From Sphingomonas edaphi (GTDB lineage Bacteria; Pseudomonadota; Alphaproteobacteria; Sphingomonadales; Sphingomonadaceae): 64,000 nucleotides of DNA. Shown one piece after another: positions 44,506-54,576 of this stretch. The position numbers were made by a program, and so were the translations under genes. Where the stretch lies: NCBI RefSeq assembly GCF_003583725.1, contig NZ_QXTF01000001.1:1178001-1242000 (forward strand). The letters run 5' to 3'. Numbering within the stretch: the first letter of the stretch is position 1; each line of letters starts with the position of its first letter. The notes under the pieces were generated by a model. It made no database searches. It had not been told where the DNA came from and was given only the letters and a program-made list of their open reading frames with translations.

Positions 44506-45083
44506 GACGGCAGGATCCCGTTGACCCGAAGAGCAGCAAGCAAGGGCAGGAGCGGCATTCCCAGAACGGTGAAATAGCTCCCTCTGATCTCGTCGAACAG
44601 CTGGACCCCGCGTCCCTCCATGCGGAACACACCGACGCAGTAGCCGACTTCCGGCCACTCGGCGTCGAGATACGAAGAGATATATTCTTCGCTGAGCGGA
44701 CGCACGGACAGGAGTGTCTCCTCGGCGTGACTCCAGGCCAGTTCACCGCCGTTGGCCAAGGCAACTGCGCTCGACAGGATCATCTCCTGCCCGGAGAAAG
44801 CCCGGAGGTGGACGGCTGCCTCGTCGCGATCCCGCGGTTTGGAGTATCGCTGACCGCCAACCTCGACCACGCTATCACTGCCAACCACCCAATCGTCAGG
44901 ATCAGCAGAAACCGAAAGAGCCTTACCCTCGGCAAGACGTAAAGCGAGACTGCAGCCATCCCCGCGATGCGCATTCTGCACCGGTTTTTCGTCATAATCG
45001 GGTGAGCGGACGACGAAATCGACGCCCGCCTGCTCAAGCATTGAGCGCCGGATTGAGCTGTTACTGGCCAATATCAACGACAT
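44502..45083 (-). CDS. maf: Maf-like nucleotide pyrophosphatase
   Basis: The 193-residue protein starts MSLILASNSSIRRSMLEQAGV, the Maf signature with SNSSxRR, and has WVVGSDSVVEVGGQRYSKP, HLRAFSGQEMILSSAVAL and EVGYCVGVFRMEGRGVQLFDEIRGSYFTVLGMPL. Maf proteins hydrolyse non-canonical or canonical NTPs (dTTP/UTP or m7GTP); the subclass is not decided from sequence alone. It is the first leftward gene beside the putative origin and begins the four-gene unit maf, aroE, coaE, dnaQ. Confidence 0.92.
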   Translation of the reverse strand: MSLILASNSSIRRSMLEQAGVDFVVRSPDYDEKPVQNAHRGDGCSLALRLAEGKALSVSADPDDWVVGSDSVVEVGGQRYSKPRDRDEAAVHLRAFSGQEMILSSAVALANGGELAWSHAEETLLSVRPLSEEYISSYLDAEWPEVGYCVGVFRMEGRGVQLFDEIRGSYFTVLGMPLLPLLAALRVNGILPS

Positions 45084-45104
45084 ATTGCCTCTGGTGGACA
45101 AGTC

Positions 45105-45113
45105 TGTGGATAA
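45105..45113 (-). promoter_or_regulatory. Perfect DnaA box
   Basis: TGTGGATAA on the plus strand is TTATCCACA on the minus strand, an exact match to the DnaA-box consensus. Confidence 0.85.
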
Positions 45114-45196
45114 ACCGGGGTGACGGCGACCGACAGTCCGGTGGACGAAAGTTCGGCGGGATTCCGCCCCGCGAGGTTCTTGGCGGATTCGAGACT

Positions 45197-45205
45197 CTAT
45201 CCACA
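45197..45205 (+). promoter_or_regulatory. One-mismatch DnaA box
   Basis: CTATCCACA differs from TTATCCACA only at the first base. Confidence 0.7.
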
Positions 45206-45294
45206 AGGGAATTTGGAAATGCGCAGACTGTGAATCATGGGAGATTCTCATCGCGACTCGTGAAACAGCGGCGATTCGCGCCGACTCGGGGCCT

Positions 45295-45335
45295 GTTGGC
45301 AAAGTCGGGACAGGGCCTTAAGTCCCGCTGCCAAC
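45295..45335. repeat. Nested inverted repeat in the origin region
   Basis: Outer arms GTTGGCA (45295-45301) and TGCCAAC (45329-45335) and inner arms GGGAC (45307-45311) and GTCCC (45322-45326) form a two-part stem with a 10-base loop. It lies about 10 bases before the AT-rich tract. Confidence 0.7.
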
Positions 45336-45388
45336 GTCCCATCTACATCATCAACTTTTGAATCTTAATTTATAAGAGAAAGAAGAAA

Positions 45389-46432
45389 GTGGCCGCCCCC
45401 GTGCCCGATCACTTCACTGACAAGCCGCTGCTTTCCGTCCTTCGTGGTGAACGGCGCGATCCGCCGCCGATGTGGCTGATGCGCCAGGCAGGACGCTACC
45501 TTCCCGAGTATCGGACTCTCCGGGAAACCAAGGGCGGCTTTCTCGACATGGCTTATGATCCGGAGGCCGCCGCCGAGATCACGTTGCAGCCATTGCGCCG
45601 TTTCCCATTCGACGGCGCGATCCTTTTTTCCGACATCCTCATTGTGCCGCACGCGATTGGCCAGGAGTTGACCTTTGTCGCCGGTGAGGGCCCTCGGCTA
45701 TCTCCCCCGCTTTCAGATGCGTCGCTCGGCGGTCTCCAGCCGGTGCTACAGCACCTCGAGACGATCTGGGCGACCGTGAGGCGGGTGAAAGCTCAATTGG
45801 CGCCACAGACGACCTTCTTGGGCTTCGCGGGAAGTCCATGGACTGTCGCGACCTACATGGTCGCGGGTCAAGGCAGCCGCGAGCAGGCGGAGGCTCGCAG
45901 CCTGGCCTATCAGGACCCCAGCAAGTTTGAGGCGATTATCCGGCGGATCGAGGAAGTTACGCTCGATTATCTCACTGGCCAGGTGGAGGCGGGCGTGGAT
46001 GCCATTCAGTTGTTCGACAGCTGGGCAGGCAGCCTCGCCCCGGCGGAATTCGAGCGCTGGGTCATCGCCCCTACCGCGCGTATTGTGTCGGCCTTCCGGG
46101 CCCGTCATCCTGAGACACCGGTTATCGGTTTTCCCAAGGGAGCCGGCGGGAAACTTCGCGCTTACGCCGCCGAAACCTCGGTCGATGCGATCGGTCTCGA
46201 CGAAACGGTCGACCCCCATTGGGCGGCGAAGGAGTTGCCGGACACACTTCCGGTGCAAGGCAATCTCGACCCGTTGGCGCTTATAGCGGGCGGAGGGGTA
46301 TTGCGTGAGGCCGTGTCCCGCATCCTTGACGCATTTGCCGACCGGCCCCACATCTTCAACCTGGGTCACGGTATCCAGCAGACTACGCCGATCGCGCATG
46401 TCGAGGAGTTGGTTTCGCTGGTGAAGGGCTAG
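45389..46432 (+). CDS. hemE: Uroporphyrinogen decarboxylase
   Basis: Removes the four acetate carboxyls of uroporphyrinogen III. The 347-residue protein has PPMWLMRQAGRYLPEYR, with the substrate-binding motif, FDGAILFSDILIVPHAIG with the catalytic Asp, FAGSPWTVATYMVAGQ, LFDSWAG, and FNLGHGIQQTTP at the C-terminus. The start is a GTG at 45389, preceded by AGAAGAAAG, a weak Shine-Dalgarno sequence. The GTG follows the AT-rich tract of the putative origin directly, so hemE transcription would cross the unwinding zone. hemJ follows by two bases. Confidence 0.95.
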   Translation: MAAPVPDHFTDKPLLSVLRGERRDPPPMWLMRQAGRYLPEYRTLRETKGGFLDMAYDPEAAAEITLQPLRRFPFDGAILFSDILIVPHAIGQELTFVAGEGPRLSPPLSDASLGGLQPVLQHLETIWATVRRVKAQLAPQTTFLGFAGSPWTVATYMVAGQGSREQAEARSLAYQDPSKFEAIIRRIEEVTLDYLTGQVEAGVDAIQLFDSWAGSLAPAEFERWVIAPTARIVSAFRARHPETPVIGFPKGAGGKLRAYAAETSVDAIGLDETVDPHWAAKELPDTLPVQGNLDPLALIAGGGVLREAVSRILDAFADRPHIFNLGHGIQQTTPIAHVEELVSLVKG

Positions 46433-50460: not shown

Positions 50461-50476
50461 TGTTTCACGTGAAACG
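50461..50476. promoter_or_regulatory. parS: parS centromere-like site, upstream of mnmG
   Basis: TGTTTCACGTGAAACG matches the consensus TGTTTCACGTGAAACA at 15 of 16 positions. It lies between mnmE and mnmG, about 5 kb right of the putative origin, and is the expected binding site of the ParB encoded at 53707. Confidence 0.9.
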
Positions 50477-52320: not shown

Positions 52321-52925
52321 CCGGAGACAACCGGGGCCTCGGACCAACTGTTTCACGTGAAACATTAGAAAAGCTTGACGCTTTCGTCGGTCTTCTATTG
52401 CACGAAAATCAGAAGCAGAACCTGATTTCACCGGACAGTGTCGAACATCTCTGGGATCGGCACATTCTCGACGGCGCTCAACTGTTCACCTTGGCGGGGC
52501 GGGCGGGCCGTTGGGCAGACATAGGATCAGGACCCGGTTTGCCCGGAATGGTCATCGCCATTCTGGGGGGCACACCCATGACACTGATCGAACCCCGTAA
52601 GCTAAGAGCCGATTTTCTGCGTAGGTGCGTCTCCGAGCTCGGAATGACCGAAGTGAAGGTCGCCGATACCAAGGTTGAGCGCCTCGGGGCAAAGTTCGAC
52701 ATCATTACTGCCCGGGCAGTCGCCAAGCTGGACCGACTGTTCGAAATGGCGGGCCATTTGGCCCATGATAAGACGAAATGGGTGCTTCCGAAGGGCCAGT
52801 CGGTGAAATCGGAACTGGATGAGGCGCGCCGGACGTGGCAGGGTGAATTTCGTCTGGTGCCGAGCCAGACGCATCCTGATGCGGCCATCGTCGTTGCCGA
52901 ACACGTCAGGCGGAGGGGGAAGTGA
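52317..52925 (+). CDS. rsmG: 16S rRNA (guanine527-N7) methyltransferase RsmG
   Basis: The 202-residue protein has a Rossmann methyltransferase core: NLISPDSVEHLWDRHILDGAQL, WADIGSGPGLPGMVIA with SAM motif I, MTLIEPRKLRADFLR and FDIITARAVAKLDRL. It methylates G527 of 16S rRNA. The codons for TVSRET (52347-52364) contain a perfect parS, so this segment is constrained by both translation and ParB binding. It is coupled to mnmG upstream and parA downstream. Confidence 0.95.
   Translation: MTGDNRGLGPTVSRETLEKLDAFVGLLLHENQKQNLISPDSVEHLWDRHILDGAQLFTLAGRAGRWADIGSGPGLPGMVIAILGGTPMTLIEPRKLRADFLRRCVSELGMTEVKVADTKVERLGAKFDIITARAVAKLDRLFEMAGHLAHDKTKWVLPKGQSVKSELDEARRTWQGEFRLVPSQTHPDAAIVVAEHVRRRGK
52349..52364. 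promoter_or_regulatory. parS: Perfect parS site inside the rsmG coding sequence
   Basis: TGTTTCACGTGAAACA is an exact 16-base match. It encodes part of TVSRET near the RsmG N-terminus and lies about 560 bases before parA. Confidence 0.95.
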
Positions 52926-53710
52926 TGATCCGCATTGCTGTCGCCAACCAAAAGGGTGGGGTGGGCAAGACAACCACCGCCATCAACCTCGCGACGGCGT
53001 TGGCAGCGATCGGCTGGAAGGTTCTGCTCGTCGACCTCGATCCCCAGGGAAATGCTTCGACGGGCCTCGGCATTGGCCAGGCAGCCCGCGAACGATCCAG
53101 CTATGACGTTCTGATAGGCGAGGCAACGATCACTGAGGCCGCAGTTGCGACCAAGGTGCCGCGCCTCGACATTCTGCCGGCAACGGTCGACTTGTCGGGT
53201 GCTGAAGTCGAAATGGTGGGCATGGAAGATCGCACGCATCGCCTTGCCCAGGCGTTTGACGAAGTGCCCGCCGGGCGCTGGGATATCTGCTTACTCGATT
53301 GCCCGCCGTCGTTGGGGTTGCTGACCGTCAACGCGCTCGTGGCCTCACGGCAGCTGCTCGTGCCGCTGCAGTGCGAATTCTTTGCGCTGGAAGGGTTGAG
53401 CCAGCTTCTTCAAACGGTGGAACGCATCCGGGTTGCCTTCAATCCAGGGCTATCGATCCTCGGCGTTGCGCTGACCATGTTCGACCGCCGCAACAATTTG
53501 TCGCAGCAGGTTGCGGAGGATGTCCGCGCCTGCCTCGGCACGTCGGTGTTCGAGACGGTGGTACCCAGGAATGTGCGCCTGTCGGAGGCGCCAAGCCATG
53601 GGTTGCCTGCCCTGATCTACGATTTGAAATGCCCGGGTTCTGAAGCCTATATCCGGCTCGCCAGGGAAATTCTGGCGCGCTTGCCACAACTCGCCGCGGA
53701 GGCAGCATGA
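52925..53710 (+). CDS. parA: Chromosome-partitioning ATPase ParA
   Basis: The 261-residue Walker-type ATPase starts MIRIAVANQKGGVGKTTTAIN, with the deviant Walker A KGGVGKTT at residues 10-17. It has LLVDLDPQGNASTGLG, WDICLLDCPPSLGLL and VPLQCEFFALEGLSQL. ParA moves the origin by a gradient mechanism with ParB. A GTG at 52922 is also in frame; the ATG at 52925 has GGAGG eight bases upstream. It overlaps parB by four bases. Confidence 0.96.
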   Translation: MIRIAVANQKGGVGKTTTAINLATALAAIGWKVLLVDLDPQGNASTGLGIGQAARERSSYDVLIGEATITEAAVATKVPRLDILPATVDLSGAEVEMVGMEDRTHRLAQAFDEVPAGRWDICLLDCPPSLGLLTVNALVASRQLLVPLQCEFFALEGLSQLLQTVERIRVAFNPGLSILGVALTMFDRRNNLSQQVAEDVRACLGTSVFETVVPRNVRLSEAPSHGLPALIYDLKCPGSEAYIRLAREILARLPQLAAEAA

Positions 53711-54576
53711 AGAAGGCCACCGGGCTGGGCAGGGGACTCAGTGCGTTGATCGACGATGCAGTTCGGCCCGCGAAACCGGAGACCGCATCGGGTGCCGGCG
53801 TGCGCGAAATCGAAGTCGGTCGAATTCGCCCTAACCCCTTACAGCCGCGCAAGAATTTCGACGAAGCCGCAATTGACGAGCTTGCAGCTTCGATCCGGGA
53901 ACGAGGCCTGTTGCAGCCCATCCTCATTCGTGCCGTGGACGGCGGTTTTGAAATTATTGCCGGCGAGCGGCGCTGGCGGGCCGCGCAGAAGGCGCAGCTT
54001 CATCAAATCCCGGCAATCGTCCGGGAATTCGATGAATCCGTCACCGCTGAGATTGCGCTAATCGAGAATATCCAGCGCCAAGATCTCAATGCGATTGAGG
54101 AAGCAGAGGGCTACAAGCAACTTATCGGTCGCTATGGCCACAGCCAAGACGCGGTTGGGAAGCTCGTTGGCAAGTCGCGGAGCCATGTAACAAACCTGCT
54201 TCGCCTGCTTGATCTGCCGGATGGCGTAAAACAGATGCTGTTGCGAGGCGATATCAGCATGGGCCACGCCCGAGCAGTCGCATCCGCGCCTGACGCCGAA
54301 CAGCTTGCAAGCCAAATTGTGCGTGGCGGGTTGTCGGTCCGCCAAGCGGAGCAATTGGCAAAGCAGGGAAAGTCCGCTGCCGCCAAATCCGTCCCTGCAC
54401 CGGACGGTCGGCCGGTGGACGCCGATCTGGCGGCGCTCGAGCGTCAGTTGGGCGACTTGCTTGGCCTTCGGGTCAAGGTAGCGCACGGCAAGGCTGGTGG
54501 GACGGTGGCGCTTCACTACAGCTCGCTCGATCAGCTTGACCTGATCTGCCAGCGGCTCAGCGGCGAGCCAATCTGA
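53707..54576 (+). CDS. parB: Chromosome-partitioning protein ParB
   Basis: The 289-residue CTPase clamp has a ParA-interacting N-terminus (KKATGLGRGLSALID). The CTP-binding box GERRWRAAQ (Gly86-Arg89) and IENIQRQDLNAIEEAEGYKQLI follow. A helix-turn-helix then recognises parS (VGKLVGKSRSHVTNLLRLLDLP), and a C-terminal dimerisation domain ends the protein. Both parS sites in this window are within 3.3 kb. It converges with holA across nine bases without a clear terminator. Confidence 0.96.
   Translation: MKKATGLGRGLSALIDDAVRPAKPETASGAGVREIEVGRIRPNPLQPRKNFDEAAIDELAASIRERGLLQPILIRAVDGGFEIIAGERRWRAAQKAQLHQIPAIVREFDESVTAEIALIENIQRQDLNAIEEAEGYKQLIGRYGHSQDAVGKLVGKSRSHVTNLLRLLDLPDGVKQMLLRGDISMGHARAVASAPDAEQLASQIVRGGLSVRQAEQLAKQGKSAAAKSVPAPDGRPVDADLAALERQLGDLLGLRVKVAHGKAGGTVALHYSSLDQLDLICQRLSGEPI

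Follow-up and report, generated by a model that had tools for sequence, protein, structure and literature searches.

Replication origins linked to hemE are an already published type. Such origins, with a putative DUE besides conserved DnaA boxes, were published for Sphingopyxis and are predicted in DoriC for most Sphingomonadaceae (PMC4741004), and a position of dnaA near the origin is described as not conserved in Sphingomonadales (PMC8116508). The motif GANTC was reported to rise in frequency around the origin in four orders, Sphingomonadales among them, with bins of 1/100 of the chromosome (PMC9836097). The intergenic gap between maf and hemE that we analysed is the place expected for the family, and we regard it as an ordinary, well-supported origin; the part of it that is worth testing is a dense, partly conserved cluster of methylation sites. 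Below, the window is the whole stretch of DNA analysed (64,000 nucleotides), and positions given without a contig refer to it. The features of the gap and its surroundings are collected in Table 1.

Table 1. Positions of the features in and around the maf-hemE gap, with the basis of each assignment.
Feature	Position	Strand	Basis and conservation
Intergenic gap maf/hemE, proposed replication origin	45084..45388		Gene starts and conserved neighbourhood
Weak DnaA-box-like site, two mismatches	45093..45101	-	Mismatch count
Perfect DnaA box TTATCCACA (box 1)	45105..45113	-	Box scan; TGTGGA at most 4 bp from the aligned place in 109/122 family origins
Very weak DnaA-box-like site, three mismatches	45140..45148	-	Mismatch count
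Three GANTC sites (45160, 45186, 45193)	45160..45197		Within 3 bp in 26, 7 and 29 of 122; poorly conserved
One-mismatch DnaA box CTATCCACA (box 2)	45197..45205	+	Box scan; TCCAC[AC] near the place in 39/122
Decayed copy of an inverted DnaA-box pair	45217..45237		Right arm 45229-45237, TGTGAATCA, two mismatches; left arm barely recognisable
GANTC site	45243..45247		Within 3 bp in 21/122
Most conserved GANTC, inside GcrA-type YGAKTCG (45254-45260)	45255..45259		Within 3 bp in 95/122; exact column in 90; YGAKTCG in 61/122
Two GANTC, each inside YGAKTCG (45272-45278, 45282-45288)	45273..45287		Within 3 bp in 56 and 35 of 122
Inferred promoter-like pair TTGGCA-N17-TAAGTC before hemE	45296..45324	+	TTGGCA-N17-TA at the place in 78/122
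AT-rich tract, candidate unwinding element	45353..45388		81% AT; AT-richest 36 bp of the window; contains GANTC 45360
parS-like site, one mismatch	50461..50476 (contig 1 1,228,461)		parS search
Perfect parS TGTTTCACGTGAAACA	52349..52364 (contig 1 1,230,349)		parS search
parA and parB	52922..54576	+	Gene identification

The maf-hemE gap, its DnaA boxes and other elements

The gap spans 305 bp (contig 1: 1,223,084-1,223,388) and is flanked divergently by maf, which starts at 45083 and runs leftward, and by hemE, which starts with a GTG at 45389 and runs rightward. Around it we identified coaE, aroE, maf, hemE, hemJ, rho, mnmE, mnmG, parA and parB, together with a DnaQ-like exonuclease, TerC and RsmG/GidB; the neighbours named in the original prediction were recovered. 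To compare the locus with those of relatives we used 80 hemE loci chosen by hemE similarity, whose titles are nearly all those of sphingomonads. Four of these had no usable pair of maf and hemE and were left out, and the 77 rows of the maf-hemE comparison represent 76 loci and the window. The family alignment comprises 122 distinct origins (125 less three duplicates). Twenty order relatives were examined of the 30 with a hemE match, and 40 class genomes, most of them listed first, of the 98 (among 115) with such a match. In the lineage of the window maf directly adjoins the origin: the distance between maf and hemE is about 0.3 kb in five of the 77 loci (the window, L006, L007, L008 and L014), about 1.0-1.5 kb in 72, and, wherever maf was found among the same-genus loci (47 of them), 290-365 bp. 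At L016, the one locus checked that has a gene between maf and hemE, this gene is ppsR (Kinase-PPPase, PF03618), for which the genome of the window gave no match.

A scan for DnaA boxes recovered both the perfect box 1 and the one-mismatch box 2 where they had been predicted, and the two weaker copies named along with them are present with two and three mismatches. A further box had been predicted at the right arm of the decayed inverted pair with one mismatch; its sequence TGTGAATCA, on the plus strand, has two, although the position itself holds up as a conserved box position and is box-like in 100 of the 122 family origins (TGTGGA, TGTGAA or TGGGGA within 4 bp of the aligned position). The inverted pair as such occurs in part of the relatives, with the left arm, TCCACAG, in 35/122 and the right arm, by this relaxed definition, in the same 100/122. 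A GANTC at 45232 overlaps the right arm of the decayed pair.

The number of boxes with at most one mismatch in the 64-kb window, five, is about at chance level (shuffle mean 4.18); in the 305-bp gap there are two such boxes against roughly 0.02 expected by arithmetic from the shuffle mean. The 2.37-Mb genome has five perfect DnaA boxes, and that of the gap is the sole one with a second box (at most one mismatch) inside 300 bp, none being found within this distance of the other four. As a separate observation, a further perfect DnaA box, at L005, is accompanied inside 300 bp by six GANTC but by no second box (at most one mismatch). A comparison of the gap among relatives had been proposed as a check of the original prediction, and it points to conserved box positions: a box with at most one mismatch is held by 74 of the 77 maf-hemE intervals, the window included, and by 46 of 48 same-genus regions before hemE (360 bp; 323 bp in one), and the place of box 1 is kept in the family alignment (109/122). 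No such box was found at L006 and L088, whose hemE is 85% identical to that of the window. Box loss as a mark of the closest relatives was considered and rejected, since the closest by hemE identity, L087 (86%), has three boxes with at most one mismatch.

The AT-rich tract just before the hemE GTG, also part of the original prediction, proved to be richer in AT than any other 36 bp of the window. By its base composition it is a candidate unwinding element, and its melting is putative. We also looked for the BUS/DnaA-trio unwinding system, defined as a DnaA box, a spacer of 0-16 bp and at least three NAN triplets (PMC8287927), and set it aside, the pattern being absent from the origin of the window. 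Among the 122 family origins the pattern was found in 29 (forward) and 26 (reverse) against shuffle means of 7.2 and 3.4, counts to which inverted boxes can contribute, as an inverted box can itself yield NAN triplets. An origin of the CtrA-controlled Caulobacter type was likewise rejected: Caulobacter Cori has CtrA sites, and a full-site search of the gap for the CtrA motif TTAA-N7-TTAA found none with at most one mismatch. A search of the window against Rfam at gathering scores gave no match. When 45270-45390 was folded as DNA, a potential single-stranded-DNA hairpin appeared at about 45294-45337 (z -3.26). No consensus structure was predicted for it from the family alignment of the 82 origins with TTGGCA, and GTTGG...CCAAC is found in 48 of the 86 origins having GTTGG; the hairpin is probably due to chance.

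Chromosome-scale signals and the probable place of the origin

Searching the genome with what we take to be the parS consensus, we obtained only two matches with at most two mismatches; both lie rightward of the gap, at distances of 5 and 7 kb, near parAB. As a second chromosome-scale signal we examined strand-biased octamers, presuming GGGNAGGG to be the KOPS motif and GGGCAGGG its C variant. Among the matches listed for contig 1, GGGCAGGG is found 10 times on the plus and 61 times on the minus strand from 190 kb to the gap, and 10 times on the plus and five times on the minus strand to the right of the gap; the 21 sites in the contig-1 DNA examined directly all agree with the listed matches. 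Fitted to these listed matches, a model with two switches of polarity beats a model with one by 5.9 lnL units. Its best interval for the origin, 1,215,782-1,231,727 of contig 1, contains the gap, and its best interval for the terminus is 181,254-211,154. The placement of the origin is loose, with 2 lnL units covering 1.033-1.298 Mb. Inside the terminus interval, at contig 1 190,704 (L194), lies a 28-mer that agrees in 19 of 28 positions with what we take to be the dif sequence of E. coli, no more than 15 being reached elsewhere in those 10 kb; lying where the octamers switch, this dif-like sequence probably marks the terminus.

Composition was less telling. GC skew, which had been proposed as a check of the original prediction, is uninformative here: the window and 16 sampled stretches gave no signal that could be used and showed no switch, and among ten relatives GC skew rises across the gap in seven. 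TA skew rises across it in the window and in all ten relatives, but this may be no more than an effect of the way the genes run. For ten relatives we counted GGGNAGGG in flanks of 20 kb and found it 15 times on the plus and 16 times on the minus strand to the left and 13 and eight times, respectively, to the right; the sites are too few, and no clear switch is seen.

The conserved neighbourhood, the conserved box positions, the nearby parS sites, the GGGCAGGG switch and the AT-rich element converge on the gap and support the original prediction of an origin here. The locus shows what is found at hemE-type origins: a place beside hemE in the maf-hemE-mnmE-mnmG-parAB neighbourhood, DnaA boxes at positions conserved in relatives, and parS close by. 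From these sequence features, it is very probable that the chromosome has its DnaA-dependent origin (oriC) at 45084-45388. Several points weigh against it: two strong boxes are few, L006 and L088 have no box with at most one mismatch, GC skew shows no switch, the DnaA-trio pattern was not found in the gap, the polarity fit is loose, and the GGGNAGGG counts in the flanks of relatives are indecisive. The main rival place is the dnaA locus, at contig 1 391,793 and about 0.83 Mb from the gap, and in the 4.3 kb scanned there we found no box with at most one mismatch.

Another reading of the same elements takes the gap as nothing but the divergent promoter region of maf and hemE, where DnaA and GcrA/CcrM, acting through the boxes and the GANTC sites, would regulate the transcription of hemE, and places the start of replication at another site. 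It can draw on the promoter-like TTGGCA-N17-TA, conserved in 78 of the 122 family origins, on the three YGAKTCG sites upstream of this pair, and on the generally higher frequency of GANTC in intergenic DNA of Alphaproteobacteria (PMC3973325). A generic sigma-70 promoter scan of 44900-45500 found none. It is opposed by the genome's only parS matches, which lie next door, by the GGGCAGGG polarity switch, whose best interval contains the gap, by the other four perfect boxes, which have no second box (at most one mismatch) within 300 bp, by the dnaA locus, where no box with at most one mismatch was found, and by the oriC that has been predicted beside hemE in Sphingomonadaceae (PMC4741004). We consider a promoter role alone highly improbable.

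With the gap taken as the origin, its position and its sites can be read from the DNA itself, and what happens there we infer by analogy with known DnaA origins. DnaA-ATP would load on box 1 and then on box 2 and the weaker sites, the DnaA filament would melt the AT-rich tract beside the start of hemE, and replication would depart from the gap in both directions. ParB, bound at the two parS sites 5-7 kb rightward, would segregate the origin.

The GANTC cluster before hemE

The gap contains nine copies of GANTC, the CcrM methylation motif, between 45160 and 45364, against 0.73 expected from the density in the window; the original prediction did not mention them. Methylation sites are clustered at the probable origin, as they are where Dam and SeqA act. 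None of 5000 shuffles of the gap reached nine sites (mean 2.2, maximum 8), and in the 393 kb of the genome's own DNA that were scanned the gap is the densest 300 bp for GANTC, with nine sites and the next with six. The 90 other intergenic stretches in this sample have 0.75 GANTC per 305 bp, as called by a rough reading-frame method that does not list the gap itself, probably because chance frames cover most of it, so that other intergenic DNA will have been missed too. Of YGAKTCG, the extended GcrA motif (PMC7987155), the gap has three copies, and 78 of the 122 family origins have one or more; ccrM, gcrA and dnaA are all present in the genome.

We dropped the idea that this density is unique genome-wide, as the dnaA locus, which lies outside the scanned sample, has seven GANTC in about 355 bp and the scan covered 393 kb of 2.37 Mb. 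The seven sites at dnaA (L235 267-621) form a second GANTC group. Seven further sites were noted within 552 bp (L170 3023-3574) before a large reading frame that, named by eye, is flavoprotein-like.

The 122 family origins have 4.8 GANTC on average (range 1-12), in total 584, against 223, 84 and 67 for three rearranged palindromes. Over the 77 loci, the 320-bp segment ahead of hemE has an average of 4.66 GANTC and strictly outranks all other windows in 57; these other windows, 3689 in number and coding as well as non-coding, average 0.58. Among the single sites, the one at 45255 stands out, being matched within 3 bp in 95 of the 122 origins (mean over positions, 13), matches that are not independent events since the family sequences are related. 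This GANTC and the right-arm box were both found in 87 origins, and in 57 of these the GANTC follows the box start at a distance of 25-26 bp. The 20 order relatives, which are more distant, together have 29 GANTC in the 320 bp ahead of hemE, ten of them in one genome, whereas their own density would give about 8.7; eight of the 20 have no GANTC there, and seven of these eight genomes have ccrM. In the 40 class genomes, 104 GANTC were found in the 400 bp before hemE against 24.8 expected, and 11 of the 40 have four or more. From these counts in order and class relatives, GANTC enrichment before hemE is therefore class-wide on average, and the dense form with a position-conserved site is seen in Sphingomonadaceae, site conservation having been assessed within the family alone. 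Among the titles and abstract openings listed, none concerned a conserved GANTC at the Sphingomonadaceae oriC.

As to function, CcrM would methylate the cluster, and its sites would stay hemimethylated after passage of the fork. The hemimethylated cluster would then mark the newly copied origin, gate the hemE promoter through GcrA, or both. Our hypothesis is that the cluster reports replication status, either via GcrA at the promoter-like TTGGCA-N17-TA or via DnaA, and it might in this way link copying to the cell cycle.

The chances are about even, in our judgement, that the gap is indeed the origin and that the cluster has nothing to do with replication, its sites being either a stack of promoter elements that respond to GcrA/CcrM or drift that is tolerated at a non-coding place free of selection against GANTC. 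The deletion of ccrM in Caulobacter, which left replication control unchanged (PMC3973325), is in line with this, as are the eight distant order relatives without GANTC in the 320 bp before hemE, seven of them with ccrM, and the weak conservation of most single GANTC positions. Drift alone, however, hardly explains one site kept in 95 of 122 origins, or nine sites in a genome whose other intergenic DNA, sampled in 90 stretches, has 0.75 per 305 bp.

Rather unlikely is a role like that of the GATC cluster at the E. coli oriC, in which the sites, hemimethylated after firing, would block the rebinding of DnaA in a sequestration-like manner and allow initiation once per cycle. The density of GANTC in the gap, the spacing of 25-26 bp after the right-arm box start in 57/87 origins and the one GANTC that overlaps the decayed box in this genome would all suit such a block, and a comparable role was proposed for ori2, a secondary origin of Agrobacterium (PMC11514494). 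The result of the ccrM deletion in Caulobacter (PMC3973325) and the relatives that have ccrM yet no cluster argue against it.

A more specific possibility, which we hold to be quite unlikely, is that the main DnaA origin of Sphingomonadaceae carries a conserved CcrM-methylation switch, centred on the GANTC about 25 bp from the conserved DnaA-box position, and that this switch ties re-initiation to the pulse of CcrM that comes once per cycle. It would be an alphaproteobacterial counterpart of GATC/SeqA control, absent or lost in Caulobacter. The ccrM deletion in Caulobacter spoke against methylation control of a main origin (PMC3973325), while CcrM does affect the secondary origin ori2 in Agrobacterium (PMC11514494). 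The conserved GANTC beside the DnaA-box position offers a base-level target for asking if a main origin in Alphaproteobacteria is under the control of adenine methylation.

Comparison with known origins

Closest to the gap are the hemE-linked oriC of Sphingopyxis and other Sphingomonadaceae, which likewise lie near hemE and have conserved DnaA boxes and a putative unwinding element (PMC4741004). Within the family, the gap differs in that maf abuts the origin, whereas 72 of the 77 loci have the two genes about 1.0-1.5 kb apart, with ppsR between them in L016. The Cori of Caulobacter crescentus resembles the gap in lying in the hemE gene cluster (Brassinga 2001, cited in PMC4741004) and in having several GANTC sites (PMC3973325). 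It differs in that the gap is without a CtrA site and dnaA is far away here. With the E. coli oriC and its Dam/SeqA control the gap shares the clustering of a methylation motif at a DnaA origin (PMC3973325, PMC2865523), but the motif here is GANTC instead of GATC and the enzyme CcrM instead of Dam. The repABC-type ori2 of Agrobacterium, finally, also has GANTC at the origin and responds to CcrM (PMC11514494); it uses RepC, whereas the gap has DnaA boxes.
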